Part shown: positions 1-14,620 of the stretch, in pieces
Layout: each line of letters starts with the position of its first letter
Numbering within the stretch: position 1 is the stretch's first letter
NCBI GenBank assembly: GCA_027603945.1
Contig: JADIIU010000208.1
Coordinates: forward strand, 1 to 14,620
Length of the DNA stretch: 14,620 bases
Direction: 5' to 3'
DNA from: Terramyces sp. JEL0728
Lineage: Eukaryota; Chytridiomycota; Chytridiomycetes; Rhizophydiales; Terramycetaceae
Program-made: the position numbers and the translations under genes
Notes under the pieces: model-generated
The model's database searches: none
Seen by the model: the letters and a program-made list of their open reading frames with translations, nothing else
What the model was told of the DNA's origin: nothing

Positions 1-179
1 GCAAAGTATACGATCTGACAAAGTTCATGAAGGTCCATCCTGGAGGAAAGAAAGCCATTATTATTGTTGGTGGCCAGGATGCGACAGAAGATTTTGAGGC
101 TATCCACGGAGATGGACCGAAAGCATCCAAAGAAAAGTATTGCATTGGTGTAGTTATCGCAGACAAGGCAAATTTGTAA
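1..179 (+). CDS. Cytochrome b5-like heme-binding domain protein, 3' end (5' truncated by window)
   Basis: The frame opens at base 3 and runs 58 residues to the TAA at 177-179. The visible part is the C-terminal two thirds of a cytochrome b5 fold. It contains the HPGG heme-ligand motif (residues 12-15 of the visible part) and the second ligand His in FEAIHG (residue 35), preceded by the usual YDLTKF. Cytochrome b5 domains carry electrons to desaturases, hydroxylases and reductases. The protein ends right after the domain, with no tail anchor, so either it is soluble or the b5 domain is the C-terminal module of a larger protein whose start lies outside. A GTAAGT donor-like string overlaps the stop (176-181), so splicing to a downstream exon is possible but not supported by any convincing continuation. 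The family call is secure; the exact protein is not. Confidence 0.85.
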   Translation, partial: KVYDLTKFMKVHPGGKKAIIIVGGQDATEDFEAIHGDGPKASKEKYCIGVVIADKANL

Positions 180-315: not shown

Positions 316-1202
316 ATGAAACTAACACCACAGCAGATCCAGGAATTAGACCAGAGTAATCAATTGGCTTATCCCTGTCTAATATCTGGTATTCTCATGG
401 TATTCGAAGCTGTGTTCTTTCTGTCTTATATTTGGATAGATTCTAAAAGGGAACATAAACGGATAAAGACCGGCTTTAATATCGCAATAACAGGTTCTCA
501 ATACTAATATAGGTTATATCAGCATAATTCAGGATTGCTACTGACAAATGCGGCAACTATTATTTCATTTGGGATCACTTCATTGCTACCAGACTACAAA
601 TTGTACATTTACATTTCGGATTCGTTTTGGCTGTGCTTGTACAAGGCGCTTTTCATCAGGTATATATTTTTAATCAAGTACTTGTTACTAACAAGGTTAC
701 TCTTACTTTAGATCATACGTGCTGTTTGAAGAAAAAGGATACCGGACAGCATTGGAAATACTGTTGGGAATATCATGCATTTTGATCCAGCTGCCTTGGA
801 TATTCAGATTATTGTTGCTGACCGATATGTCTATCGACGTGCTTGAATTATCAAAAGTCTCTGGGATAGTTGGAACAGCAACAGCTATTTTATGGGATGC
901 ATTCTTTATGTTTATGTTTTTACGATGGATTTGGACACGGTGTGATGGCGATAGCCGGCTTGATATTATTACAGTAATACGTTACTAATTAGCTTTGCGG
1001 ATTGTACGCGTGTGTGTTTTCAGTATCTGCTGTCCTTGTGTCAGCGATACCTCTGAGTCAAAAAGAGTATTTGTATTTCATTGGGTTGTGGATGTTGAAT
1101 GGGAGTAGTTTGTCCTTGGTAGTAATGAAGACCATGTTGGTACAAGAAGAAAAAATCAAGAGTGAACTGGAAAAGAACCGATATGTTGTTGCTGTAGAAT
1201 AA
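316..1202 (+). CDS. Seven-transmembrane protein (258 aa, four exons), unrecognised family
   Basis: Exons: 316-493, 533-659, 712-973 and 993-1202 (stop included); introns of 39, 52 and 19 nt. The joined frame gives 258 residues with seven hydrophobic segments at about 19-41, 54-78, 84-106, 114-138, 151-177, 188-210 and 215-238. Loops are short and the C-terminal tail (EEKIKSELEK) is charged and probably helical. The ATG at 316 has A at -3 and is the first in-frame Met before TM1. The 19-nt intron GTAATACGTTACTAATTAG is unambiguous because both flanking frames are open and join in phase. The topology is receptor-like, but I see no diagnostic GPCR motif and cannot name a family; a transporter or other 7-helix protein is possible. 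The hexamer AATAAA at 1198-1203 contains the TAA stop. The 39- and 52-nt introns may be composite (see findings). Confidence 0.75.
494..532 (+). other. 39-nt intron, apparently two abutting ultra-short introns (19 + 20 nt)
   Basis: The segment must be removed to keep the 7TM frame open (TAA at 505-507). It splits exactly into GTTCTCAATACTAATATAG (494-512) and GTTATATCAGCATAATTCAG (513-532), each with GT at its start, a TAAT-type branch candidate and a terminal AG. Whether it is excised once or in two steps cannot be told from sequence. Confidence 0.55.
660..711 (+). other. 52-nt intron containing overlapping 18- and 19-nt intron-like units
   Basis: Removal of 660-711 joins the exons ending CATCAG and beginning ATCATACGTG in frame. 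The first 19 nt (GTATATATTTTTAATCAAG, 660-678) match the local ultra-short intron consensus. An 18-nt unit, GTACTTGTTACTAACAAG (678-695), holds a perfect TACTAAC branch box. Removing the inner unit would leave a 34-nt GT...AG intron, a nested arrangement. This is the longest intron in the window. Confidence 0.5.
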
Positions 1203-1696
1203 AGCCTGTTTTGATTTGAATCTTGGCTGATTTACTTCAAACGTTATCTACTCTGACAAATTTTTGAGTTGGATCACCCAAGTGATATTTGTAGTAGAAT
1301 ATTATTAGTGGTTCTCATTTCTTTTGCTCAGGTGATCAACATAAGTAAGCGCGCTCAATTCCGATGAAACCCACGCAAAGCAAAATCCAACTAACGACTT
1401 TATCTGTAAATTCAAATTACAGGAAATACTTGCGTTCCGTTCCAGCAAAGTGGAAAAATTAATAGGTATCATATTGAGTAATGTACCACGTTTTAACTTG
1501 GAAAAATGGAAAACGAAATATCTAGAGGAACATTGCACACGTTCTGGCGGGTTTAGAGAAGCATCCACAAAGTTTAGTATTTGGCCTCTGGACAATATTT
1601 TGTCATTGCGGGTGGTTGGTCTTGTGATGTTTTTGTTGTCCTGTTGTTTTCAATATAAACCACCATTTTTTTACGCGTTGAACGTACAATTTTAAA
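1203..1696. other. Intergenic region between the 7TM gene and the Cys-rich gene
   Basis: 494 bp without a gene I can support. It must hold the 3' end of the 7TM gene and the promoter of the Cys-rich gene. An open stretch on the plus strand (about 1414-1695) has no ATG at its 5' end and no recognisable similarity. A minus-strand open stretch (1305-1595) overlaps it. I see no convincing TATA box near 1697; the sequence just before that ATG is AAAATG-like with A at -3. Confidence 0.5.
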
Positions 1697-4600
1697 ATGC
1701 GTGTCTCAACGGTCGCATTAAGTTGCATTACGACTACAGTCTTGGCCTCTGGCCTTACTCCAGTATCCGAATATTGGACTGACTTTCAAATTTCCCTTGG
1801 AAACAATAACGAAGGCTCTGTGGTGGTTTTCAAAATTGATTTCGACAAGCCAGTCTACCTTACCTCAACATCAAACCCTTCCAACTCTGTTCCTTTGACT
1901 AGCTACGGGTTGTCGGTCAATTCTACAACTGGGTTTCCTGTTGTAACAATGTTGGCACAAGGTACACACTACTAACGACTTAGGCGCGCTTTCGTTGACC
2001 TGTGAAGGCAACGGTGCTTCTGTCAATGTTCCAAACATGTTTCCTAATGGCCCAATGAATGGCCCACCTCCAAATTTCATGGTTGCTCCACCAACAGGAG
2101 ATCCTGGCAGCACCATTGTCAACAGTGTTATTGGTGGAGTTAGGGTTAACGAAACCTTCTTTCCGAATCGTCTGGGAATAGCCTTTGTTGTAGCTTCACC
2201 TAACGTGCAAAGTCTTATTGGACACAGCTGTGTTGTTACTGGATTGACTTCTGGTGCGTATAGGATTACCAGTGCCGATGGGACGCCATGGACTACGCCA
2301 TTAAATGTAACGTGGCATAAACCAAGGTGTGTGTATTCAGAAGTAACTGCTTTGATTGAAGCCGCTCAAGCTATCAGTGATCTTGGAAGCAACATTACCG
2401 TTATTGATCAAGTGAATAGCATCCAAAATATGGTGATTTTTGTTAATCCAGGTTATGGTGCTGAACACTCGCGAAGCATTTTATGGGTGTCAAAATATGG
2501 TTTATTCTTTTGCAACAATCGGCACGGTCAACTTTACTATTACCGGATCAACTGACTGTGTCTACCCTTACAATGATCCACGATGGCAGACAGATCCTTG
2601 TTGCAACCAAAAGTAAGTTTTATTAATATAGTGTAGCGAGAACCCAATGCTGTGCTCCAAAAAGTTCGACTGGGTATTCTCCTATCTTGACTGGTCTTAA
2701 CGCTGAAATTATTACGCATACTTGTTTGAATCCTGGTAAAATCAGTGCTTTGATGAGTGACTTTGCTCAAGTCCAAGCAAGGATTGCTCTACTGCCAAAT
2801 TTAGACCTGGAATCTCTTTGGAACACTTATTCTGGAGCCTTGAGTGATTGCCAAACGACTGTTTATCAAACGCAATGTACCCTTGATACTGATTGCGCGT
2901 ATTCTGGCCAATGCGGCTCCAATTCCATGTGTGTTTCTACTGACCGCTCGTTAATGTATCAATGTCTGTTTGATATAATGGTATCGACATTAATCTAATC
3001 TAGTCTGATGATCTTCGGACCGAATTACTGCACGAGGCTGGGCTACCAAAAACCGGGCATTTCAGCCAAGATGGTAGAAATTTCTACAATTTTATTAAAG
3101 GTTTAGGATTAGTCTATGACTGTGTTGGACCTACTGGTTGGAACTACCGTCGAGGCTACCAACAACAAGGAACCGATGATCAAGGAAACCCCAATTGGGT
3201 TTATGTTCCAGCCAATGAATATGGCTGTTTGATGGACAAACAATGCACATATGAGCCTTGGAATCGTCGAAATGAGAGCCAATGTCTACATGGCCAGCTT
3301 CCTGGATTTTGCGGTCAGACTGATGGTACTAATGCCCAACCGCTATCCAGATTCGCTCAGTGTCAAATTAGCATGCAAGATCTGCAGGATAGCGCCTGTG
3401 CTTCATATGGAGGTGTAACTGCTTTTGATAATAATTGCGTTCTGCCTTCTCGTAATACGTCATCTACCTGCTTGACAGGTCCAACTTGTCGCGCAAGCCA
3501 AGCAGGCTCTGCTTGGGGTTGTGGTGGAAACGTCTGTTACAACGCTACTGCAACTACTCCGCAAAACTGTACTTATTCGTACAAAATGTATTGGGACCAA
3601 GATCGCTCTGTCTGTGCTTATGGTGTCATGTATAACGAAACCTCTTGCACTGCTGCGGGATTAACTTTTCTCCCTGGTTTATTTTTCAACTACGGGTACT
3701 ATGATTCTCCTGCTAAGTGTCCAAATTCTACATGTTCCGATCAACAACAGACCACATTATACAGTGATCCAGCCAATTATCTTACAGTCGCAACGAATCA
3801 GGTAAATCCCCTTAATAGTAGACTTACTGCAACGATATCGGAACCTGCAATGTTCCATGTGCGAGATGTCAGTCATTTGGCGGATATGATTACGGTGTTT
3901 GTATTGATTCTAATTACACTTCACAGTCTAGTTGCAACTCTGCTGGCGGCCAATGGCAAAACAGCCAATCTACATCCTTGTGCCTGCTCACTTCTCTTAC
4001 CCAGGCAGCCTGTACCAATTCAACTCAAACTTGGAGCGTGAGTTTCTTTTTAATCTTAGGATTGCAACAACTTGGGACAATATGGCTGCTCAAATTCTCC
4101 ATTTTCTCAAGCTTTGAATTGCCACTGGAACTCAATGACCAATTGTATCCGCTCTGCGCAATGTATGGCATCCGGAACTTGCAACGACTATGAATATTCA
4201 ATGAATGGGCAAAACAGTGGTGTCTGTGTTTATCCTAACCCATCCCAAGGTTCCTGTCCGAATGGAGATCAAAACACTAGAAATGGAAACTGTATTTCCC
4301 ACAATATTAATTCACAAAATACTTGCGCCAGCTCCAATTATACTTGGACAACTAGAGCAACTAATGCAGCAGCCTGCGCTGCTTATGGGGGGTACTGCTT
4401 AGATCCAAGAGGCAGAATGTCTTTTGTGAACACAACCGCCTGCACTGCATGCGGCGGTAAATACTACGATTTCTACCAATGGCAAAATGTAGGTTCGTTA
4501 CTAAACATAGCCTCGATGGTCCCCAACCCAAATGAAGACGACCCAGTGGATTCCAGTTGAATATTCTTCAGAAAACCAGTATGTTCAAGTAGTAGATGAC

Positions 4601-5426
4601 TCTAAAGCACAACAATATTTCCAAAATGCAATTGGCAGGATGATTGCACGAATGTATATTAATCAATTGAATATTAAATTCCGAGCCTATGGATCAATCT
4701 ACGAAGCAGTTGCCTGTGACTGCATTGCAAATCTTACTACCTGTTTTGTTTATCCAGTGACTTCACCAATCGATTCTTGCTTGGCAGATCCAAGCTCAAA
4801 CTCTACTTGTTCTGGAATAACTATACCTCAAGGTCTTTTCAACACTTCCAATGCTGTAACTATCATTGTCAACTATGTCAGTAATTCTGCTTTTGTCAAC
4901 AGCGCACTTGGCTCTAACTATCCTTTGGCCAAACGAACGGACAGTTCTAACAATGTAGCTGTTATTACTGATATTGGTGGAGATTTGGTTGGTCAGCTGG
5001 TTGGAAACGGCCAGCAGTACACATTCTCTTCAATGCCAACCTCTGCTGTTCCAGTTTGTCTTAATATCGATCTGTCTATTTATCAAAACACTGGAACTTT
5101 TCCAGTTATGGACTTTGTTAATATGCAAGTATTTGTTTAATCGTAGGACTGGCAATGCTTTAGGCGTTCCTCTCAATATCTCTATTACCAACAATGGCGG
5201 CCAATATTGTGGAAATGTTCCACCTTTCCAGTCTGCAACTTTCTTTCCTATTTTGAGGATCGTGCGTATTTCTACAGATTCAACTGCTGTCCTATCTGCA
5301 ACCGGCTCTTCCTCTGCTACTATGGCTTCTACTATGTCAGCTCCTCCTTCCCAAACCAGTGGAGGCCAAACGCTTGGAAGCATGGCGTTGATATGCGTAT
5401 TGCTGGTAGTATTGCAGGCTATTTAA
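1697..5426 (+). CDS. Large secreted Cys-rich protein with C-terminal GPI-type tail (~1185 aa, nine exons)
   Basis: Exons: 1697-1961, 1984-2432, 2452-2612, 2632-2980, 3004-3801, 3822-4037, 4060-4488, 4511-5104 and 5130-5426; introns 22, 19, 19, 23, 20, 22, 22 and (provisionally) 25 nt. Residues 1-17 form a signal peptide ending in VLASG. Residues 18-290 are an N-glycosylated domain with few Cys. From about 285 to 890 the chain is very Cys-rich, with CC pairs (DPCCN, TQCC) and EGF/knottin-like spacing (DTDCAYSGQCGSNSMC), plus many N-X-S/T sequons. Residues 890-1090 hold a second low-Cys domain. The end is Ser/Thr/Ala-rich (SSSATMASTMSAPPS) followed by a hydrophobic tail (MALICVLLVVLQAI), typical of GPI anchoring. 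This suggests a cell-surface or wall protein. I recognise no catalytic domain or named family. The last exon junction is uncertain (see findings). AATAAA at 5425-5430 overlaps the stop. Confidence 0.82.
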
Positions 5427-5678
5427 TAAATTTGATTCCTTTTCCAATGATGCATTGGTTTTTTGGTTAGACTACACTTTTTTCAGACAAGTATATTCAA
5501 AATCACACAATTGATTATCATCAATTCCAAGACCGACGAATGTTGCGAGATGCTGGCACAGAATCTAAAGTACGTGAAGCTGAATAATATGCATATCTGG
5601 CCTTGTCTTTGAGCAAAGGATTAGATTGGTCAAACTGAGAGTATGACAAAGTCTACACAAAATTATAATCCTTATTTA
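5427..5678. other. Convergent intergenic region
   Basis: 252 bp between two convergent genes. I see no further gene or RNA. Both flanking genes have an AATAAA hexamer at their stop codon, so most of this stretch is probably outside mature transcripts. Confidence 0.5.
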
Positions 5679-5891
5679 TTACAGAAATAAAAATGGAATA
5701 AACCAAATATCAGCAACTGTACCGAGGGCAAAACTAATTGGAGTTGGGTAGTCAGGGACAGCGGTTGGACCACTAGCAGCAGCAGTTGTAGTAGAAGTTG
5801 CAGTAGGGGCTGGGATAGTAATTGGATTAAGGTTCGTTTGAGTTAATGCGGCAGCAAATATACTACAGACAGAGAGATGTATTAATTTCAT
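5679..5891 (-). CDS. Small secreted Thr/Ala/Pro-rich protein with C-terminal hydrophobic tail (70 aa)
   Basis: A single exon with its ATG at 5891-5889 encodes 70 residues. An N-terminal signal peptide (about residues 1-18, MKLIHLSVCSIFAAALTQ) is followed by a low-complexity Pro/Thr/Ala/Ser stretch (residues 22-50, with a TATSTTTAAAS run) likely to be O-glycosylated. A hydrophobic C-terminus ends in ADIWFIPFLFL. This is the layout of a small GPI-anchored mannoprotein, or of a signal-peptide protein with one membrane tail. No family is recognisable, as expected for such compositionally biased proteins. It converges on the large Cys-rich gene and diverges from the gap before the second 7TM gene. 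AATAAA (5680-5675 on the minus strand) overlaps the stop. The signal peptide plus matching tail make chance unlikely despite the short length. Confidence 0.6.
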   Translation of the reverse strand: MKLIHLSVCSIFAAALTQTNLNPITIPAPTATSTTTAAASGPTAVPDYPTPISFALGTVADIWFIPFLFL

Positions 5892-6589
5892 TAGGTAAAC
5901 AAACCACCACGGAATTATTTATCCATGCCATGCACCAGTGCTTTAATCGAGTATCTTTCACAAATTAAAGACCTGCCGAGTATTGTGAATTGCGTCAATT
6001 GTAATGCAAGCAAAAGATTAGCCTGAAAATAATGTTGCAGTATCTTGTGCCTCCACCACATTATCGAGAGAATTATTCAAGAAATATATCAATCGCCTGT
6101 TTATATAATGCAGTGCTCCCTACAGGACAAACAGTACAATTGGGTAACGAGTGTCCGTCATACTATAAATCTGCAACAGCATCATTAAATTTCCTTCAAA
6201 CGCCATATTTGTCTGTCCTATGATTGGCCATTCTACAAAAGCCATAGATAACCTTTGAGGAATTGATTTATGATCTGTTTTTTGATATACCAAAAACGGT
6301 ATTGGGCCCTCGAAATCTCATCAATCATTGATCACAATTTTTATCAGAAAGTGGGCAGTTGAATATCTCTTTGAACTTCTTTTTGCCATATCCTTTACAA
6401 TCGCGTCAAATTGCTTGACTTTGGAATTTCAGCAATTGATATACGGCAATCACAACGACAGAAATAGCAGACAAATCTATCAGCAGGAACATAACCAAGA
6501 CCTTGTTTCAGCAATTTGGACAATAAGAATGACGTCAAATCAGTGATCGCCAATTAAAAATCTTCACAGCTCTTTTTAAATATCCGACA
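5892..6589. other. Gene-poor 0.7-kb region with two small orphan ORFs
   Basis: Divergent promoter space for the small secreted protein (-) and the second 7TM gene (+). On the plus strand, 6032-6223 is an ATG-initiated 63-codon ORF (MLQYLVPPPHYRENYSRN at its start; later ACLYNAV and GNECPSYY) with no hydrophobic leader or known domain; it could be a remnant exon of a secreted Cys protein. On the minus strand, 6492-6406 is a short ORF whose start (MFLLIDLSAISVVVIAVYQ) looks like a membrane or signal anchor. Neither is secure. A consensus CRE (TGACGTCA) lies at 6530-6537. Confidence 0.35.
6530..6537 (+). promoter_or_regulatory. ATF/CREB-type palindrome TGACGTCA upstream of the second 7TM gene
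   Basis: A perfect 8-bp CRE palindrome starts 60 bp before the ATG at 6590. ATF/CREB bZIP factors bind this sequence in fungi and animals. Its position in a proximal promoter supports function, but a single 8-mer can also arise by chance. Confidence 0.3.
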
Positions 6590-7705
6590 ATGATCTATCA
6601 TGATCCACAGCAAGCCTTGTCAAACTATTTTGTGGTGATTATGTTAATCGTTGACTACCTTGGATTGTTTCTTTCTGTCTGTCTTACCATTGGGTTGGTG
6701 CGTGCTTACTTTCAAAAGACTTTTACTCCGATGCAGTACAGCTGCATATTTCAATTGCTGTACAGTCTTGGGTTTTGCTTGGTTTGCATTTTCTCGAAAC
6801 ACGATTTGCTCTACTACAACTGGTCCGCAGGATCACTGTACTTTGACCATTCGGATGTAAATGCCACCTTTTCCACTTGGATTCACCGTGCTAATGCTTC
6901 AATTGCGATTTTTTGTATGGTGCCCATCTACGTCGCTGGCATTTGTCAAATTGCTGCGTTAGACTCCCTATTGGTAGACAAGTCCTCGGTAATTCGTGAC
7001 ATGGTAAGAAAATATCCGACATTGTACTACTCGGTGGGCTTGATCCCTGGCGTAATCATGCTGACCATTTATTGGATAGAAATCCAGGTCAGAGGCATTC
7101 CAGCTCCCTACTCGGTAAACGGCGCGATGATTTCGTGTTACAATACTTCTTACATAGGTAAGCTGCACTAAGATAGTTATTATTGCCTATGTCCTTGGTA
7201 TCTTGACCACGCTTTATGGGCTTTACCTCTCGCTTAGAACTTACAAAAATTTAAAAGTAAATTTCAAAAGAATGATCGAGACGGCTCAAAAAAGTGGTGT
7301 TTCTGGCTACGTGGTTTTCCAAGTGCTGCAAATTGGTTACGCCATGCCTATTGTTGGGTTTGTCAAAGGGTTTGAATTGCTTATCTGGATCTTTCCATCC
7401 GTAATTAACGTGTACTATGGTATTCCACATTAATTCAGGGACATATGGATTGGTACTAAGTTCAATCACTCCACTGCTGGTCTTTGTTAGCAATGGGAGC
7501 CACAAGAATATTCATCCGCTCGTTCCAATCTTTGGTGGGTTTTTAGGTAAATTAAATTAATCCAGGTGTAATTTATGAAAAGTCCTCAAAGGAAGAAGCC
7601 TGGAATCCGTTCTACAGCAAAGGATCGACTGCTGAAAAAAGCTTGGTGAAAAATTCAACACTGAAAACACCGTCTACGGCCATCAGCGTTTCTGTGCAAG
7701 AATAA
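6590..7705 (+). CDS. Seven-transmembrane, GPCR-like protein (352 aa, four exons)
   Basis: Exons: 6590-7157, 7177-7419, 7439-7546 and 7566-7705; all three introns are exactly 19 nt (GTAAGCTGCACTAAGATAG, GTATTCCACATTAATTCAG, GTAAATTAAATTAATCCAG). The 352-residue product has seven hydrophobic segments at about 13-36, 48-69, 103-124, 142-163, 187-208, 232-258 and 265-288, and a hydrophilic ~60-residue C-terminal tail rich in Ser/Thr. Sequons NWS and NAT in the TM2-TM3 loop and NTS in the TM4-TM5 loop fit an N-out, GPCR-type topology in which those loops are extracellular. Basic clusters (RTYKNLKVNFKR) fall in the predicted cytoplasmic TM5-TM6 loop. I cannot assign a GPCR class or ligand. The gene converges on PUS10 with 40 bp between the stops. 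A CRE lies 60 bp upstream of the ATG. AATAAT, one base from AATAAA, overlaps the stop. Confidence 0.8.
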
Positions 7706-7745
7706 TTGCTGAATATAAATATTTTTCGTGCCATTTACTTGACAC

Positions 7746-9357
7746 TCAGTTTATTTGAGGAGGCCAATCCAAATGAATTTCTTCAACATCAAGGTAGACG
7801 ACCGAACATTCAGTACCAAGTAAATCTCCTAAACAAGGGTTAGTTCGCCCACCATCTCCATGAACAAACTCTTTGACATAAGTACCGGCACTTGTCTTTA
7901 AATAAACCATAATTTCATCATTTTCGTCCAAATCTGCCGCTGGCAAAGGTCCGTCTTTCCATTTCACAATCTGTATAGTTTCAATGAGTTTGTCTCTAAC
8001 AAGGTCTGCTCGGCGTGGCACACGGGTCGGGTTTTGCTGTTTGAGTTCAATATCTGTCATTTCGTTGACTTTTTCTACTGTTTCCCAGCTTGCTTTTGAG
8101 TTGCATTTCACGAGACATCTATATTAACTAGAACAGACTTGTAGCTCTTTGATTTTGTGCTCGCGCTGTCTTTCATAATACTCGTATTGTCTTTGGTAAC
8201 CAATTGCAAATCCCATACTTTGATTCGCCCATTACACCCCTTGTTGATTTTGTCCATTACACCATCAATTGCGTCTAATTTATGAGGATTCACCAATTCA
8301 AAGTAAAACGGTCTTCCTCTACCCAGCATTCGCACATCAACGTCTTCTCTACCAGCTGAACTGAATTTATAGCTGCTACATTGAAATGCCTGTGTCAAAT
8401 AGGCACCAATAAGCTCTTCCATTGAATCTTGTGCCATTCGTTTTGACCCAACGAACCACTTTGAATTTGAAATTCCCCGTTCTAGTTTATTGTATCTTCC
8501 AGCAACGAATAACTGGGTGTGGTTAAATGAGATTCCAAGAGATGGGTTGGTTGTAATTGCGGGCGGCGGGTAGATATTGCTATTCTCTATGTCTTGTTCC
8601 GTGATGTTCTTTAGTGCCAAATTGATCTTGTCTACTGAAGCACCTTGATGCACGGTCCTCCCCCTTTTCTTGCTAACCTTGACATTGAATTTAGAGTGCG
8701 GCAAAGTAGTCATAAATTCATAGTCCATTACTGATTCGTTATGGTTGATTGCCAGCTGTAGAGAGAACGGAGACTAGGTTAGCACGAAAATACGTTGACA
8801 TTGTAAGACAAATTTGAAGCAGCAGCGAATGCATGCTTTAGTAGGTATTTAAATACTTCTTTGACTTCTAACGGTTCAGGTATTTCTTGTTTTTTAGGGC
8901 TCTTTGATGGCGATTGTGGTTTAATGTGATTCTTTAAAAAAAGCTGCATACTCTTGTTTCTGATTTGCAACTGAACGGGGAGTTGAATTGAAAGATTGAA
9001 TAAAGCCAATGGTGAATATTGCTCATCTTTCAGCGAATCCACTGAATCTTGAGCGAGTTTTTTGAAATTTAGTTGCAGCAGTCCTAAGCAAGTTGAACAT
9101 GGTTTGATTTCTGGCTCTTTTTCTTCAGTAGCATCTATTTCCTCTCCTTCCAATTTAATTTTCTTGTTCATTTCAGACTCTAATATAAGTTGACATGAAC
9201 CATAAGTTGGACTGTATTCCGCCAAGTCTTTCTGTTGATTTCGAAGTCCCAAGTATCTGGTAACACAGTTATAGCAACAGCCAACAGAGGCACATGAAGA
9301 AGCAATCTTTTCATACAACGGGTTTTCCAGTGTGATTTTCTTTATCAGATTTTGCAT
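7746..9357 (-). CDS. PUS10: tRNA pseudouridine synthase Pus10
   Basis: Exons, minus strand: 9357-8794, 8773-8139 and 8118-7746; introns of 20 nt each (GTATTTTCGTGCTAACCTAG and GTCTGTTCTAGTTAATATAG). The product is 523 aa, close to the ~530 aa of animal PUS10. The N-terminal Zn-type pairs are CYNC (residues 28-31, within CCYNCVTRYLGLR) and CSTC (87-90). The catalytic block SAGREDVDVRMLGRGRPF lies near residues 326-343, with the conserved Asp in GREDVD. The C-terminal block QNPTRVPRRADL and the KTSAGTYVKEFVHGDGGRTNP signature are family hallmarks, and the chain ends in the typical LDWPP. Pus10 isomerises uridine 54/55 in the tRNA T-loop. Splicing of both introns is needed to join the conserved blocks, which makes this the best proof of 20-nt introns here. 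It is divergent from CMS1 with 33 bp between the ATGs. Confidence 0.96.
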
Positions 9358-9390
9358 TTTTCTTTTTTTTTTTTTTCTGAAAAGTTTGAA
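9358..9390. promoter_or_regulatory. 33-bp divergent promoter with T tract
   Basis: The whole space between the PUS10 and CMS1 start codons is 33 bp and contains a run of 14 T (9363-9376). Poly(dA:dT) tracts exclude nucleosomes and commonly serve as bidirectional promoter elements in fungi. There is no room for separate classical promoters, so transcription must start inside this spacer or within the opposite gene. Confidence 0.5.
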
Positions 9391-10099
9391 ATGGCTAGTG
9401 CAGATTCTTTGGATGATGATTTCTATATTGAGGGTATCGACGGTGCAGCTTCAGATAAGGAACCGGAAGTAGATGTGGAAGTAGATGTGGAAGTAGATGT
9501 GGAAACCAAGACTGAAAAGGAAACCAAGAATGACAAGAAGGACAAGAAGGACAAGAAAAAGGATAAAAAGAAAAAGAAACCAAAGGCAGAGAAACCACAC
9601 ATGTCATTTGAATCACTAGGAGTAGAAATATCACCAAACCCTGATGATGCTCCGTCAATATCCAAACTTATTGATCAACTTTACATTGATGCTCCAAAAC
9701 CACTATACGTGAAATCGCACACCAAACTCAAAGTCTTGGTAGTATCTTCATCCGCACTGCGTTGCTTGGAAATTTACAAAGAAGTACGCGAAAAAGCAAA
9801 AACAATCAAACTATTTGCACGTCACTTGAAAATCAATGACCAAATAGAATCACTAAAAAAGGAACCCTTTCTTATTGGGGTTGGAACGCCAGGAAGAATA
9901 AGGAAACTTGTTGAACAAGATAAAGGTATTTTTTGTTAATTCAGATGCAATTAGGGTGAATAGGGTTGAGTTTGTGATTGTTGACGGATGGATTGATAGC
10001 AAGAATTTTAATATTCTTGATAATAATGAGACTAGGGAAGACACCTTGCATCTTGTTTCGCTATTTAAGGAAAGCGCACTTGGCATTCATATGATATAA
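9391..10099 (+). CDS. CMS1: Cms1/CMSS1-like ribosome biogenesis protein
   Basis: Exons: 9391-9925 and 9945-10099, joined across the 19-nt intron GTATTTTTTGTTAATTCAG; 229 aa. The family (yeast Cms1, animal CMSS1) is linked to the small-subunit processome. The N-terminus is acidic with a VDVE repeat (about residues 27-38), then a Lys-rich stretch (residues 43-68) that probably directs nuclear or nucleolar targeting. The conserved core follows: LKVLVVSSSALRCLEIYKE, then VGTPGRIRKL (a helicase-like TPGR element without the ATPase), then in exon 2 VEFVIVDGWID and NETREDTLHLVSLFKES. It is shorter than yeast Cms1 (~290 aa), mainly N-terminally. The ATG at 9391 is chosen because upstream in-frame codons are the T tract and would overlap PUS10. 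Identity as a Cms1-family member is likely; the yeast symbol is used by homology. Confidence 0.88.
9466..9501 (+). repeat. Tandem 12-bp repeat, three perfect copies, in the CMS1 coding region
   Basis: GAAGTAGATGTG is repeated three times without mismatch, encoding EVDV units. It is followed by a GACAAGAAG 9-mer repeated at 9532-9558 (last copy GACAAGAAA), encoding DKK. Both preserve frame, so copy number can vary without breaking the gene. Confidence 0.9.
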
Positions 10100-10443
10100 A
10101 TTTATTAGTTGTTTTTGTATTGGGAGCCCAGCAATATCTGATTTCAGTGTTACATGCTGAATTCTATCATTTTTGATTTTAAAAAAAGTGTATTCTTAAA
10201 GTTGTAAATTTTCTAGATTTGGTTTTTCTGTGGCAAGCTGGGAATGGCATCTGGAATGGCACAGGTTCGATTCCTGGAGTGTTGCGGAAGCGGTCGATGA
10301 TGATAACAACTGGAAGCAGACTATGATGGTGCATCCAAAATTATAGACTACAACGGTATCTGATGACCTTTTTTTCATGCCCAAGTCTCGGGAACGACCA
10401 GTGCACTAATTTAACTGCAGTCTATGAAATGACCAAATAGGAA

Positions 10444-10456
10444 GTGAGTCACTCAC
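10444..10456 (+). promoter_or_regulatory. AP-1/Gcn4-like site in a 13-bp inverted repeat (GTGAGTCACTCAC)
   Basis: The arms GTGAGT and ACTCAC are perfect inverted complements around one C. The 7-mer TGAGTCA (10445-10451) is the classical bZIP (AP-1/Gcn4) site. It lies about 200 bp upstream of an NAD(P)-binding NmrA-like gene, a plausible target of stress or nutrient bZIP regulation. Function is inferred from position only. Confidence 0.3.
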
Positions 10457-10619
10457 CAAAGAGGTTGCAAAACTTTAACCAACTGAGAAAACCACAGCTG
10501 CCACATCCCTTTATTTCCACCATACTATTAGCGTTATTGCATCAACATGCAGGCGCAGTCATTATACGCTGGAAACTATATATTTTCTTGGATATTGAAA
10601 CTGCAAAAAGCCACACTTG

Positions 10620-10627
10620 TATAAATA
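10620..10627 (+). promoter_or_regulatory. TATA box TATAAATA
   Basis: A consensus TATA element ends only 24 bases before the ATG at 10652. With the usual 25-40 bp spacing, the transcription start would fall at or very near the start codon, implying a minimal 5' UTR. Confidence 0.45.
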
Positions 10628-10651
10628 GGAATGCTGTGAAAAGGAACTGCT

Positions 10652-11485
10652 ATGCTCGATTCAATTCTAGTAGTTGGTGGTTCTGCTGGTATCGGTAGAC
10701 ATGTTGTTTTGGAAGCGCTGAAAGACTCTTTCTATAAAAAGGTAGGAGTATTATCGAGAAAACAAACACCAGCTCTTGATGAATTAGTATCACTCGGTGC
10801 AGCCGTTAATGTAGTTGACTACAGCGACTTGATGGCACTTGAACAACATATGCACGGATATAAAGTGGTAGTTGCTATCCACAATACATATGGAAACATT
10901 GATGATGCGCTTGCAATTATCGACACTGCAAAGAAAGCTGGCGTCAGTAGATTTGTTCCAAATGTGTGGGGAGTAGACTACGAATTAAATGCAGTACTCC
11001 CTTGGCTTGGTCCTCGTTTAAAAATTCGCAACCACCTAAAGGAAATTGGATTAGCGTATACTGAAATAATCCTTGGGTTCTTTTTGGAAAATATTCAGAA
11101 AGATGGAATTGATGGCTGCGCGATTGATTTTGCAAACAAAAAGGCAACTTTTTATGGAGATAAACCAGCTTCTTGGACTCTTCGAAGAGATGGAGCAAAG
11201 TTTTTGTTGCATAAATTAAAAACTGAAAAAGGAAATAATAGTTATCGAATTGAAGGTGATCGTATTTCATTCCCTCAAATCGTTAGCCTTGTGGAAAGGA
11301 AATTGGGAGAATTCACTAAAGAAAACGTATCTGAAAACGTACTTGAATTGTATGAAAGCATAAGCGATCCATTTGATTGTATGGCAGGGCTAGGGAGAGG
11401 AGTAGCCAATCCGAATGGTGAACAACTTCAACCGCTCATGAATCCAATTACCGTTGAATCATGGCTGGATCAATTATTTGAATAA
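10652..11485 (+). CDS. NmrA-like / atypical SDR NAD(P)-binding protein (277 aa)
   Basis: A single-exon 277-residue protein. The N-terminal Rossmann signature is LVVGGSAGIGRHVV (about residues 5-18, Gly-rich loop GGSAGIG), followed by a second strand ending in the VGVLSRK region that usually selects NADPH over NADH. Later segments (VVVAIHNT, ID then AKKAGVSRFVPNVWGVDY) match the NmrA/isoflavone-reductase-like group, where KKAGVKRF-type motifs follow the dinucleotide fold. Members are either redox-sensing regulators such as fungal NmrA or true reductases; sequence alone does not decide. There is no SDR Tyr-x-x-x-Lys pair, consistent with the atypical class. The TATA box is 24 bp upstream. AATAAA at 11481-11486 contains the TAA stop. 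It is the only longer complete gene here without an intron. Confidence 0.85.
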   Translation: MLDSILVVGGSAGIGRHVVLEALKDSFYKKVGVLSRKQTPALDELVSLGAAVNVVDYSDLMALEQHMHGYKVVVAIHNTYGNIDDALAIIDTAKKAGVSRFVPNVWGVDYELNAVLPWLGPRLKIRNHLKEIGLAYTEIILGFFLENIQKDGIDGCAIDFANKKATFYGDKPASWTLRRDGAKFLLHKLKTEKGNNSYRIEGDRISFPQIVSLVERKLGEFTKENVSENVLELYESISDPFDCMAGLGRGVANPNGEQLQPLMNPITVESWLDQLFE

Positions 11486-11730
11486 ACTTTTGGGTAATTA
11501 TATCAAGTTTTATTCTTTTCAAGCAACTTTCTAGTGGCGGTTTGGGAAAAGTATGGACAGAGGCAGGCGGGTAGGTGTTGTTTTGCCTCCTGTTGATTTC
11601 CAACCTTTGACCGGGCCAGCGTGTTATTTGGTGTAATGTTTGGTATGATAAACACGCCTGACTTTTTATGCAAGACAATTGATTTATTTCAACGCAATGC
11701 GCATTAGCTTGGATATCCAAAATGCCACAT
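11486..11730. other. Intergenic stretch before the hAT relic
   Basis: 245 bp downstream of the NmrA-like stop. I see no coding signal or repeat. Confidence 0.4.
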
Positions 11731-12060
11731 TCATACTACCGTCTCACTCAATGAGGATCGATACACCCAAGACGATGATATTCTTATGCTCCATCGTGCA
11801 ATACAATATAGAGAAGTTATTTCAGATACTATATATAGACACAAGGATAATGACCTTATCAAATTACTGTTGAACGACAGCGATTGGGACTGCATGAAAG
11901 ATTTGCTTGCTGTTTTAAAACCTCTTAAAGAAGTTACTTTGTTGAGCTCAAAAAGCAACTCACGATAAAAATCTGAACGCGATTTCTCCTGCTTTTTGGA
12001 AAAACGAAAGATCGAAAGGCGAATGACTACACTGCTTTGTTGTATAATCATTTCAATAAT
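11731..12060 (+). pseudogene. hAT-family transposase relic
   Basis: An open frame covering 11771-11968 translates to RAIQYREVI, LLLNDSDWDCMKDLLAVLKPLKEVTLLSS. This matches the conserved middle of hAT (BED-finger/RNase H-like) transposases, where W..l..ll.vLkPf.e.T..ls is a standard block. It then hits a stop (11966-11968). Similarity reappears in another frame at about 12006-12062 (NDYTALLYNHFNNLF), the kind of spacing seen further along hAT proteins. The catalytic Asp/Asp/Glu regions, zinc finger and terminal inverted repeats are not visible. It is therefore a short, frame-broken remnant, ending where the HNH gene begins on the other strand. Confidence 0.6.
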
Positions 12061-12998
12061 TTATTCACACATTTGAGAGGACATGGGGTTGGGCATATCC
12101 CACATTTTAACCTTAAAATTACTTTCAGCAAGAATGAATTCAGCCTGAGCTTTCAGTCTGTTCTCTTCTCGTTTTTTGTAAAAGCATTTGTTGTGGAATT
12201 TCAAAAACTTTTCGCCAGGCCATTCGTTCTTTCTATCTGAATCAAAAGAAATCTGTTTTCCATCCAATTGCACAATTTCTTTTTGTAATTCCTTTTCATC
12301 AATTGTCTCTGGCTCTCGAAATTCATCCTCACGCAGCGTTTCTACAACATACACATCTCCTCTTTTGATAATTGTAAAGTCAAAGTCATCAAAAGCTCCA
12401 TTAAGAGGACCCCACATAAGAATCCCATTGCGAATGTCCATCACACGGTGTTCAGGATTGTCGCAGCTGTAAGGAAATACAGAGTCGAAAATCTCTTTGC
12501 CAACCAAATCGTTCTTTTGAAAGTAAGTCCAAGAGACAATATGACATGCTTGACAATCCAGTGCTTTTTTGCCAGTTAATACACAGCCATTAGTATCTCT
12601 TTCACATATTCTTTTCCTGAAAGATTGCTGATTTAGTTCGGTTCCATTACTGCCTCTGGTAGTGTTGCTAGCGGACCGAGACCTTTTAGATGGTATTATA
12701 AACTCTGTTTGGTCATTGTGGGGTTTGATTAATAGTGCAGTGTCTTCTGTATTTCCAGAATTTAATGAACTAAGCAGGAGGCCACCTTTAAGAGCATCAT
12801 TTGCCAAGTCACCTATAATTAACTCCTATTAATACCAGTATGGAGAGTGAGGTTTCCAGCAAAAACAGAAGCAACAGGAGAGTTTGGAAGTCCCTGGAAA
12901 GCTCTAATAATCAAAGCAATATTTGATAAGAGGAAATTCCATAGCGATTCTGTTTGCATGAATGTGTGTGTCAATCTTAACTGGTCTATTGTTGCCAT
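12061..12998 (-). CDS. HNH endonuclease-domain protein (304 aa, two exons)
   Basis: Exons, minus strand: 12998-12836 and 12812-12061, separated by a 23-nt intron (12835-12813). The second exon alone has no ATG start; splicing adds 55 residues beginning MATIDQLRLTHTFMQTESLW, and the upstream in-frame TGA fixes the start. The HNH core is FRKRICERDTNGCVLTG (from about residue 119), then CQACHIVSW with the first His at ~145, DIRNGILMW with Asn ~183, and GPLNGAFDDFDF. This fits the HNH_2 type found in many fungal genomes. At the usual last His (LHxxFD) this protein has Asn (~192), an H-N-N variant. A basic PSKRSRS stretch (~95-101) may be a nuclear signal. The biological role of these eukaryotic HNH proteins is not known to me. 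It abuts a hAT relic; AATAAA (12065-12060) contains its stop. Confidence 0.8.
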
Positions 12999-13134
12999 AT
13001 TTAATCCAAAAAGTCTTGTTCTGATTCATTTCTGAGAAAAATGTGGCTGACAACTTTGTTAGCTTACACTTCTTAATATGAAACAATTAATCTTATACTA
13101 CCGGTAGTGTCTAATAATCAAAACTGTGAATATA

Positions 13135-14620
13135 TTAATCTTCATAAGACTCTAAAGGAGGGCAAGAACAAATCAAATTACGATCACCATAAGTGTCGTC
13201 CACTCTGCTAACTGTCGGCCAGAATTTGGATTTATGGCGCAACAAATTCATAGGATATGCTGCTACAGCTCTGCTGTATGGTCTATCCCAGCTATCCGAC
13301 ATCACAACCTGTTGAGTATGTGGAGCCTTGACAAGCACATTATTATCTTTTGGATACTTGCCGTCAGCTACTTCTTGGATTTCCTTGCGGATAGAAATCA
13401 TTGCATCGCAGAATCTGTCCAATTCAGCCAGAGATTCGGATTCAGTCGGCTCAATCATCAAAGTGTTTGCAACTGGAAAAGACATTGTTGGAGAGTGGAA
13501 ACCATAGTCGTGTAATCTCTTTGCAATATCAATCGCTTCAATTCCAGAAGTTGCTTGGAATGGATGGCAATCAATAATAAATTCATGTGCACATTTGCCA
13601 TGGTTGTTTGTAAACAACACTTTGTAGTGGTCTTTGAGACGGTACATCATATAGTTGGCATTCAATAACGCCAATTGAGTAGCTTTTTTGAGGCCGTCGT
13701 CTCCCATCATTTTCAAATATGCCCACGAAATTGGCAGGATGGATGCTGATCCCCATGGTGCAGCCGAAATTGGCCCAATAGCTTTGTCTCCCCCAGAAAC
13801 TACAACAGGATTTCCCGGCAAGAACGGACCTAAATGAGCTTTAACTCCAATTGGACCCATACCAGGACCACCACCACCGTGTGGTATACAGAAAGTCTTG
13901 TGCAAGTTCAAATGGCAAACATCAGCCCCGATTTCTGCAGGTTTACACAACCCCATTTGAGCGTTCAAGTTTGCACCATCCATATATACCTGGCCTCCAT
14001 GCTCGTGAATAATTTTGCATGCTTCGGTGATTCCTTCTTCGAATACACCATAGGTAGATGGGTAGGTAATCATAGTCGCAGCAAGTGTTTTTTCGTACTT
14101 TTTTGCCTTTTCCTTTAAATCCTTTAAATCCAGGTTTCCTAATTCATCGCATTTGACTGTAATTACTTTCATTCCGCTCATGACGGCAGAAGCAGGATTA
14201 GTGCCGTGGGCAGAAACTGGAATCAAACATATATCGCGATGGCCCTCTCCGATCGATTCGAAATAAGCTTTGATGCAGCGTAACCCTGCATATTCACCCT
14301 GAGCTCCGGAATTTGGCTGAAGCGAGACGTAATCAAATCCGGTAGCTTCTTTAAGAGCATACTCCAATTCCCTAAACAAGATTTGATATCCCTCTGCTTG
14401 GTCTGTCGGTACGAATGGATGAATATTTCCAAATTCTGGAAAAGTAACTGGAATCATTTCAACGGTAGAGTTGAGTTTCATGGTGCATGAGCCTAGCGGA
14501 ATCATTGCGTCTGCCAAAGATAAATCCTTCTTTTGCAAGTGGTAAAGGTATCGAAGCATATCAGTTTCAGAATGGTAAGAGTTAAATACTGGATGTTCAA
14601 GATATGGCGTAGTCCTAACC
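13135..14620 (-). CDS. GCV2: Glycine dehydrogenase (decarboxylating), glycine cleavage P-protein, C-terminal half (5' truncated by window)
   Basis: An open frame enters the window at 14619 and runs 494 residues to the TAA at 13137-13135, without introns. It begins in the conserved [21 protein letters not shown] region and carries [12 protein letters not shown], the [15 protein letters not shown] block and HGTNPASA. The PLP-binding loop is [18 protein letters not shown], with the Schiff-base Lys codon at 13899-13897. The end is [12 protein letters not shown]. The P-protein decarboxylates glycine with PLP and passes the aminomethyl group to the lipoyl H-protein in the mitochondrial glycine cleavage system. 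Full-length eukaryotic proteins are about 950-1050 aa, so roughly half is missing, together with any targeting peptide. The next gene in the same orientation starts 136 bp downstream of the stop. Unlike most neighbours, no AATAAA overlaps this stop. Confidence 0.97.

Follow-up and report, generated by a model that had tools for sequence, protein, structure and literature searches.

Genes of Terramyces sp. JEL0728 (Chytridiomycota) contain segments of 19–22 nt that are very probably U2-type spliceosomal introns of the ordinary kind, reduced genome-wide to a functional floor. From sequence evidence we infer that these ultra-short segments are removed from Terramyces RNA. Their GT (rarely GC)-AG ends, YTAAY branch motif and fixed internal distances form a near-rigid two-part ruler of 19–22 nt. 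The window spans an entire contig (14,620 nt) from an assembly of 15,016,339 bases in 231 contigs, and the genome-scale scan used a 200-kb sample, 1.3% of the assembly.

Introns of the window

Gene models were re-derived for six genes and gave open frames with 18 introns, 16 of which are 19–23 nt long and two 39 and 52 nt. The sequence-only reading had proposed 18 introns in six genes, 16 of them short; this count stands, but its 25-nt upper length does not, as the 25-nt intron placed at 5105 was wrong. It had also given GT as the start of every intron, and this was incorrect for one: 17 of the 18 are GT-AG and the intron at 5125-5146 is GC-AG. Homology backs 11 junctions (two in PUS10, one in CMS1 and eight in gene C), and the seven in genes B, D and HNH_2 are supported by frame, motif or an automated public model. 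The C155 copy used for the allele comparison overlaps no window intron, apart from a region that is absent from this copy.

The exons of PUS10 and CMS1 were said to join inside conserved blocks, and profile scores agree. The three introns are as follows.

8119..8138, reverse strand: 20-nt intron of PUS10 (9357-7746)
8774..8793, reverse strand: 20-nt intron of PUS10
9926..9944, forward strand: 19-nt intron of CMS1 (9391-10099)

Joining across 8119-8138 turned two Pus10_C halves of 129.5 and 102.4 bits into a single 242.6-bit match covering positions 1-231 of 232. The orthologue alignment is gapless at this junction in eight of nine sequences, the exception being the B. macroporosus model, from which 5 residues are missing. 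Removal of 8774-8793 raised the Pus10_N_euk score from 41.4 to 67.7 bits, and all nine aligned sequences are gapless there. The CMS1 score rose from 50.1 to 77.7 bits upon joining. PUS10 is itself deposited as a Terramyces protein, and the automated deposited model is the same as our spliced model over 523 aa.

Gene C (1697-5426, forward strand) encodes a Cys-rich protein of 1,186 aa, and all eight of its junctions are gapless against Boothiomyces P0122.

1962..1983, forward strand: 22-nt intron
2433..2451, forward strand: 19-nt intron
2613..2631, forward strand: 19-nt intron
2981..3003, forward strand: 23-nt intron
3802..3821, forward strand: 20-nt intron
4038..4059, forward strand: 22-nt intron
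4489..4510, forward strand: 22-nt intron
5125..5146, forward strand: 22-nt GC-AG intron with a GCAAGT donor, placed by orthologue alignment

Splicing of 2613-2631 gives CCNQNVARTQCC, gapless against CCNPVLSLTQCC of P0122, and the public Terramyces model P0121 lacks 6 residues at this intron. The B. macroporosus model P0123 omits precisely the exon between 3802-3821 and 4038-4059. Splicing of 5125-5146 gives FVNMTGNALGVPLN, gapless against FVNMTNNALGVPLN of both P0122 and P0123, while P0121 runs into this intron and then stops. The orthologue-fitting 22-nt intron replaced the provisional one at 5105, and an 18-nt alternative at 5129-5146 was rejected since it results in the wrong frame.

Seven introns lie in the two membrane-protein genes B and D and in the gene for an HNH_2 protein.

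494..532, forward strand: 39-nt intron of gene B, the sole frame-keeping GT-AG option among the 15–80 nt tried
660..711, forward strand: 52-nt intron of gene B; frame open, protein P0125 identical across this point
974..992, forward strand: 19-nt GT-AG intron of gene B, from the gene model; public model P0125 concurs
7158..7176, forward strand: 19-nt intron of gene D (6590-7705), called from frame and motif only
7420..7438, forward strand: 19-nt intron of gene D, called likewise
7547..7565, forward strand: 19-nt intron of gene D, called likewise
12813..12835, reverse strand: 23-nt intron of the HNH_2 protein gene (start 12998), called likewise

The HNH_2 profile match falls in the second exon of its gene. 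At 660, six choices keep the frame open (16, 28, 34, 52, 73 and 79 nt). The 39-nt intron is composed of 494-512 (19 nt) and 513-532 (20 nt), each unit having GT, a branch-like TAAT and AG, which points to fused or back-to-back introns; no orthologue of gene B was found for checking it. A general class of tandem introns was dropped, the smallest gap among the 127 strongest candidates being 67 nt, although this test is weak because both units at 494-532 start with GTT and may lie outside the 127.

Length distribution and internal ruler

Intron candidates were defined as GTA..YTAAY..AG and compared with third-order Markov shuffles (5 or 10). In the 200-kb sample, counts against the mean of 5 shuffles were 53 versus 4.2 at 19 nt, 82 versus 5.6 at 20 nt, 37 versus 6.0 at 21 nt and 22 versus 4.6 at 22 nt. 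With 10 shuffles, 194 candidates of 19–22 nt compare with 18.0, which supports the view that ultra-short introns with GT-AG ends and a branch motif are pervasive. Outside this class there were 44 candidates versus 31.4 at 13–18 nt, 10 versus 5.1 at 23 nt and 369 versus 280.1 at 24–79 nt, the last a mild and diffuse excess. No clear excess was seen at 15, 16 and 17 nt in the 200 kb (9, 8 and 6 versus 5.6, 5.0 and 4.4). The sampled candidates thus peak at 19–22 nt and have no peak at 24–79 nt, a result that favours the sequence-only reading over a distribution centred on ordinary fungal sizes. The mode of 19 nt that it had given is correct for the window (7 of 18 introns), but in the 200-kb sample the mode is 20 nt.

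Decoy motifs were used to interpret these counts. With the donor GAT and the same branch motif and AG, 19–22 nt gave 30 versus 27.4 and 24–79 nt gave 662 versus 417.8. Since the decoy donor reproduces the 24–79-nt excess, longer introns were rejected as its origin, and the excess arises where the 3′ ends of real introns are combined with unrelated sequence upstream. The decoy branch YATAY gave 24 versus 18.6 at 19–22 nt. Another decoy, YAATY, gave 104 versus 37.0; an excess was to be expected here, as this motif overlaps TTAAT with a shift of one base.

A coding-only gene finder, which uses GT, AG and coding statistics, found the same peak, with 41 of 77 introns at 19–23 nt. YTAAY stands right before the AG in 29 of these 41, compared with 2.6% of all AGs. 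The 36 introns outside 19–23 nt are provisionally taken as mostly errors.

All 16 short window introns have lengths that are not a multiple of three, as had been stated. This does not extend to the genome, where the 195 motif candidates include 32 of 21 nt, and given this class the claim of a frame shift at every retention is not supported. Retention would bring a stop into the frame for 20/20 predicted 21-nt introns and for 20/48 of those of 20 nt. A signature of NMD was nevertheless dropped, because the gene finder is blind to stop-free 21-nt introns and 7 of the 32 candidates lie inside predicted exons.

The branch A is mostly at intron position 14 or 15 and 4–6 nt ahead of the final G. Sites with a donor–branch distance of 14–16 and a branch–end distance of 4–6 number 185 versus 11.8 expected, whereas a donor–branch distance of 13 is at chance level (2 versus 4.2). 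With so short a tail, a polypyrimidine tract cannot fit downstream of the branch point, in agreement with the sequence-only reading. At donor position +5, G accounts for 23% and T for 51% in 94 motif-assisted predicted introns, a pattern that differs from the usual donor consensus.

Splicing machinery and possible explanations

The genome encodes U2AF65, with a U2AF_lg score of 333.8 bits after splicing (cut-off 310.3) and a match to profile positions 68-507 of 510, which is nearly whole. Three internal introns and one near the start were joined in this gene; unspliced, it scores 251.7 plus a separate 27.9 bits. SF1 is encoded in two exons (66.2 and 42.9 bits), and U1C (zf-U1 profile) and an SF3a60-like protein are encoded as well. 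The U2 snRNA was found at 140.2 bits with its branch-binding GUAGUA intact. Among 14 bacterial control genomes, zf-U1 matched in two, once above the cut-off, and U2AF_lg matched in two, never above it, so that weak hits to these profiles carry little weight; the hits relied upon have E-values of 9.3e-13 and 3.5e-74, respectively. The presence of genes for both U2AF65 and SF1 contradicts the loss of these factors that had been suggested, so that such a loss does not explain the ultra-short introns.

The U1 snRNA was not found with a covariance model or with a pattern containing the U1-70K loop, searches for which there was no informative control genome. A search for the 10-base U1 5′ end gave 14 sites, none of them U1, and the U1-70K N-terminal domain had no match in the genome, with an uninformative control. 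The U6 snRNA was not found either: one pattern gave no site and another gave 24 versus 22 in the reversed control, again with no informative control genome. Two U6 matches of 27.4 and 26.9 bits (cut-off 44) were rejected as near-identical copies within what by eye resembles a protein-coding gene. The U1 snRNP and U6 should exist despite these failed searches. A U6 whose ACAGAGA box has changed, or whose gene is interrupted by introns, would account for both the loss of the +5 G and the failure to find it.

Under the explanation that we prefer, the spliceosome would recognise each intron as a single unit (intron definition). The branch point would be chosen by SF1 and then by the U2 snRNA, and the first AG downstream of it would be the 3′ splice site, giving a lariat loop of 14–15 nt. 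U2AF65, present but with no downstream tract to bind, might make no RNA contact or use the T-rich sequence that separates the donor from the branch point. Factors at the two intron ends may bind one after the other and not next to each other at the same time. The 14-nt donor–branch distance would be a lower bound towards which deletion bias presses the length. Unusual steric handling by the spliceosome, as first proposed, is a fair inference. The human B-complex geometry described in the available part of PMC6692369 needs about 52 nt between the 5′ splice site and the branch site, compared with only 14–15 nt in Terramyces.

Errors of sequencing or assembly, or frameshifts in pseudogenes, could be misread as introns, and lengths that are mostly not multiples of three, together with public gene models that differ from ours at some junctions, would suit such an origin. 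Random errors cannot, however, yield GT-AG ends, YTAAY on a fixed ruler and a peak at 19–22 nt; P0122 has no extra residues at any of the eight gene C junctions, and the deposited Terramyces models also splice many of the same short segments. We give this origin practically no credence. Non-spliceosomal removal, by IRE1 plus ligase as for HAC1/XBP1-type introns or by another small-insert excision system, is highly improbable. Introns of the HAC1 type are known to occur once per genome and those of the HAC1/XBP1 type are defined by non-GT-AG ends, whereas the Terramyces introns are GT-AG with a YTAAY motif, the U2 snRNA has its intact GUAGUA, and 195 candidates stand against 5.75 expected in 215 kb. 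Such a route would fit the missing U1 and U6 snRNA and a donor–branch distance under the mammalian minimum given in the accessible text of PMC6692369.

Spliceosomal removal by a distinct route, for example with SPF45/RBM17 replacing U2AF, is unlikely but deserves more weight. The available part of PMC8363638 reports such a route for human introns whose pyrimidine tract is truncated, and the 4–6 nt from branch to AG in Terramyces leave no downstream tract. The nearly whole U2AF65 argues against such a replacement.

Relation to known systems and gene models

Ultra-short introns are a known kind, and their occurrence in a fungus is what is added here. To our knowledge, ciliates, rhizarian parasites and nucleomorphs were so far the only known hosts of introns this short, and these systems are genetically hard to handle or have reduced spliceosomes. 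No description of them in a fungus was found among the papers listed in the literature searches, most subscription papers lying outside these, and the accessible parts of PMC13391722 and PMC8476143 hold nothing on such fungal introns.

Chlorarachniophyte nucleomorphs (Bigelowiella natans and relatives) have GT-AG introns of 18–23 nt, with 18, 19 or 20 nt commonest depending on the species, according to the accessible part of PMC4494063. The 200-kb Terramyces sample likewise holds GT-AG ends and a narrow class at 18–23 nt, hundreds of introns are common to both systems, and the 39-nt intron at 494-532 resembles the two nucleomorph introns of 40 and 41 nt, which that source explains by fusion, a relict AG remaining in the centre. 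Unlike these relict nuclei with very small genomes and 793–1,028 introns (PMC4494063), Terramyces is a fungus with a 15.0-Mb assembly. Stentor coeruleus shares a single narrow class, a fixed branch-A position, a tail of about 5 nt and AT-richness, but its introns are 15–16 nt long with a 10–11-nt lariat and no strong branch consensus (PMC9505925, available part), in contrast to 19–22 nt, a predicted 14–15-nt lariat and a clear YTAAY in Terramyces. Mikrocytid introns are also extremely short and uniform (16–17 nt, 224 predicted in M. mackini) but belong to a reduced parasite with a reduced spliceosome (PMC10245619, accessible part), whereas genes for U2AF65, SF1 and U1C were found in Terramyces. 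Paramecium and Nyctotherus have likewise pervasive tiny introns, but these are longer, at about 25 nt, and the hosts are ciliates, not fungi (PMC5014332, as far as available).

A bolder reading, less likely than not, is that about 10,000 introns leave through 14–15-nt lariats in a free-living fungus that has kept much of its major spliceosome (U2AF65, SF1, U1C, an SF3a60-like protein and U2). If so, the published pre-catalytic geometry, with far more RNA between the donor and branch helices, would not be obligatory. U1 and U6 would be altered enough to accommodate such introns, in line with a donor +5 G that is largely lost and with standard models that fail to recognise U1 and U6. Terramyces offers a fungal system for asking what the smallest intron is that the splicing machinery can handle, and whether introns reach this floor without strong genome reduction. 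With U2AF, SF1 and U1C retained, it can be asked directly which spliceosome contacts are dispensable. The strain is presumably in culture, and a 15-Mb assembly and close relatives with deposited proteins (Boothiomyces) are at hand.

Four deposited models compared here (P0003, P0121, P0123 and P0125) appear to be wrong at or near ultra-short introns, and the protein sets of this family may carry the same intron-linked damage.

Introns and genes of the window

The Terramyces sp. JEL0728 assembly consists of 15,016,339 bases in 231 contigs, and the window is one entire contig (C208). NCBI taxonomy places the host in Chytridiomycota, Rhizophydiales, Terramycetaceae, as the fungal assignment assumed earlier had it. 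The sequence-only reading had proposed 18 introns in six genes. Both numbers were re-derived, and all six intron-bearing genes were rebuilt with open frames:

316-1203, gene B, open after splicing
1697-5426, gene C (1,186 aa), open after splicing
6590-7705, gene D, open after splicing
PUS10, CMS1 and the HNH_2 gene, within the window, open after splicing

Candidate introns of 19-23 nt account for 16 of the 18, and the other two are 39 and 52 nt. The 25-nt member formerly placed at 5105 was ruled out by orthologue alignment, the better choice being a 22-nt GC-donor intron (5125-5146). When this intron is spliced out, the protein's alignment with two orthologues from Boothiomyces continues without gaps until about 39 residues past the junction. 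The deposited Terramyces model of gene C, P0121, runs into the same intron and then terminates.

The PUS10 and CMS1 exons had been said to join within conserved family blocks, and the domain scores bear this out. Separate PUS10 exon pieces split Pus10_C into matches to 1-126 (129.5 bits) and 126-231 (102.4 bits), and exon joining gives a single match to 1-231 at 242.6 bits. Joining also raised Pus10_N_euk from 41.4 to 67.7 bits and the CMS1 domain from 50.1 to 77.7 bits. The first PUS10 junction lies inside a block that is gapless in 9 of 9 aligned sequences; the second is gapless in 8 of 9, the exception being the deposited B. macroporosus model (P0003), which lacks five residues there. The spliced PUS10 is identical (100% over 523 residues) to the deposited 'putative tRNA pseudouridine synthase Pus10 [Terramyces sp. 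JEL0728]'. All eight junctions of gene C are gapless against its orthologue from Boothiomyces sp. JEL0838 (P0122). The remaining 7 of the 18 junctions (genes B, D and the HNH gene) were placed by frame and motif, and for gene B also by an automated public model; in one protein search with gene B, the Terramyces record was the only match. Elsewhere in the genome, the U2AF65 gene has four short introns (20, 20, 19 and 19 nt), the first of which, near the start codon, was picked by frame only. Unspliced, this gene gives a best match of 251.7 bits and a separate 27.9-bit piece; the spliced protein reaches 333.8 bits, above the cut-off of 310.3.

A narrow length class across the sample

Ten contigs supplied a 200-kb sample in addition to the window; about 2 kb of window sequence recurs in one of these contigs, C155. 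The pattern GTA..YTAAY N2-5..AG was tallied by length in the 200 kb and in five third-order Markov shuffles. At 19, 20, 21 and 22 nt it occurred 53, 82, 37 and 22 times, against 4.2, 5.6, 6.0 and 4.6 in the shuffles. No peak was found outside 19-22 nt in this count, the next largest being 14 against 5.8 at 37 nt. Summed by class with ten shuffles, the counts were 194 against 18.0 for 19-22 nt, 44 against 31.4 for 13-18 nt, 10 against 5.1 for 23 nt and 369 against 280.1, a diffuse excess, for 24-79 nt. A decoy GAT donor gave 662 against 417.8 for 24-79 nt and 30 against 27.4 for 19-22 nt. Because the decoy shows the larger excess at 24-79 nt, that excess is attributed to true 3' ends paired with unrelated upstream letters.

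As a non-circular check, a gene finder was run on GT, AG and coding statistics alone, with a flat length range of 8-160. It placed 41 of 77 introns at 19-23 nt, with a mode of 20 (19 introns) and the remaining 36 scattered. YTAAY stands just before the AG in 29 of these 41, compared with 2.6% of all AGs; the finder's other length classes gave 1/5, 3/10 and 4/21. By eye, several of its ten introns of 24-60 nt start or finish with a similar 18-21-nt unit. The ultra-short introns are real and general within the sample. The narrow class proposed from the window extends beyond it, but the mode moves from 19 to 20 nt in both the 200-kb count and the coding-only finder. Such introns have apparently not been described from a fungus in the literature searched.

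Branch-point spacing, splicing machinery and a possible mechanism

When 214,620 bases were scanned for a GTA donor and a YTAAY branch, 185 sites (11.8 expected) had the branch A at intron position 14-16 and the last G 4-6 nt further on. The A fell at position 14 in 88, at 15 in 81 and at 16 in 16; position 13 gave 2 sites against 4.2 expected. With the branch A so fixed, most lariat loops would measure 14-15 nt, followed by a tail of 4-6 nt. The usual donor consensus is GTAAGT or GTATGT. Among 94 introns of 17-25 nt predicted by a motif-assisted model in the 215-kb sample, +3 is A in 86%, and +5 is T in 51% but G in just 23%; from +5 to +9, T is the letter seen most often. A combined feature score, which admits 18-22 nt only, gave 195 candidates against 5.75 in shuffles (1, 50, 98, 32 and 14 at 18, 19, 20, 21 and 22 nt). 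Predicted genes cover just part of the coding sequence; 109 candidates lie outside them, 85 inside on the sense strand (64 of these sense by model construction) and 1 antisense. By extrapolation, a density of about 190 per 0.215 Mb would correspond to some 13,000 introns in 15 Mb.

The 39-nt intron at 494-532 is the sole GT-AG choice, among those tried (15-80 nt), that leaves gene B open. It equals a 19-mer plus a 20-mer exactly, both with the branch-point spacing given above. Two nucleomorph introns of chlorarachniophytes, 40 and 41 nt long, have each been explained as a fusion of two ultra-small introns with a relict central AG (PMC4494063). At the 52-nt intron of gene B, six choices in all keep the frame open.

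The possible loss of U2AF or SF1 raised by the sequence-only reading is not seen, as both are encoded (U2AF65 at its spliced score; an SF1-HH domain match in the genome). U2 snRNA was found at 140.2 bits with its branch-binding GUAGUA intact, and a U1C zinc finger (52.4 bits) lies within a U1C-like reading frame. Another protein is presumably SF3a60, judging by a C-terminal motif. U1 snRNA and the U1-70K N-terminal domain had no match in this genome or in the control genomes, and U6 snRNA was not recognised by a covariance model or two patterns. Across the machinery searches the named control genomes with matches were all bacterial, so these negatives do not amount to evidence of loss; U6 may be absent from the assembly, intron-split or diverged.

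The simplest reading is probably that an ordinary spliceosome would remove these introns through intron definition. SF1 and U2 would select the branch point, and the first AG would then be used as the 3' splice site. A distance of about 52 nt between donor and branch is said to be necessary in the human B complex (PMC6692369); here it is 14-15 nt. Either factors would occupy the two intron ends one after the other, or early complexes might be different. By analogy, Stentor introns, which imply a 10-11-nt lariat (PMC9505925), indicate that the catalytic core can probably tolerate a small loop. The step at issue for such short introns is assembly.

Deposited gene models and a second copy of the locus

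Several deposited models appear damaged at or around these introns. At the 19-nt intron 2613-2631, P0121 is short of six residues, and it ends prematurely at the GC-AG intron. The Boothiomyces model P0123 leaves out precisely the one exon flanked by introns 3802 and 4038, pointing to an intron at each of these positions in B. macroporosus. In P0125 (255 aa), the final part of a cytochrome b5 gene is run together with gene B; window 3-179 (cytochrome b5 end) and 316-1203 (gene B) look like separate genes.

The gene C product is Cys-rich, with a signal-like start and a hydrophobic end by eye. Its four hits at E <= 0.001 are Terramyces itself, two Boothiomyces proteins and one distant unnamed protein (23% identity).

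C155 (positions 249-2289) aligns at about 99% with two window segments, 11730-12138 and 13109-14620. In the region of window 12202-13072 it is without most of the HNH_2 gene, and it has no match left of window 11730. Judged by this alignment, C155 is a second, structurally different copy of the window locus, a putative haplotype or duplication.
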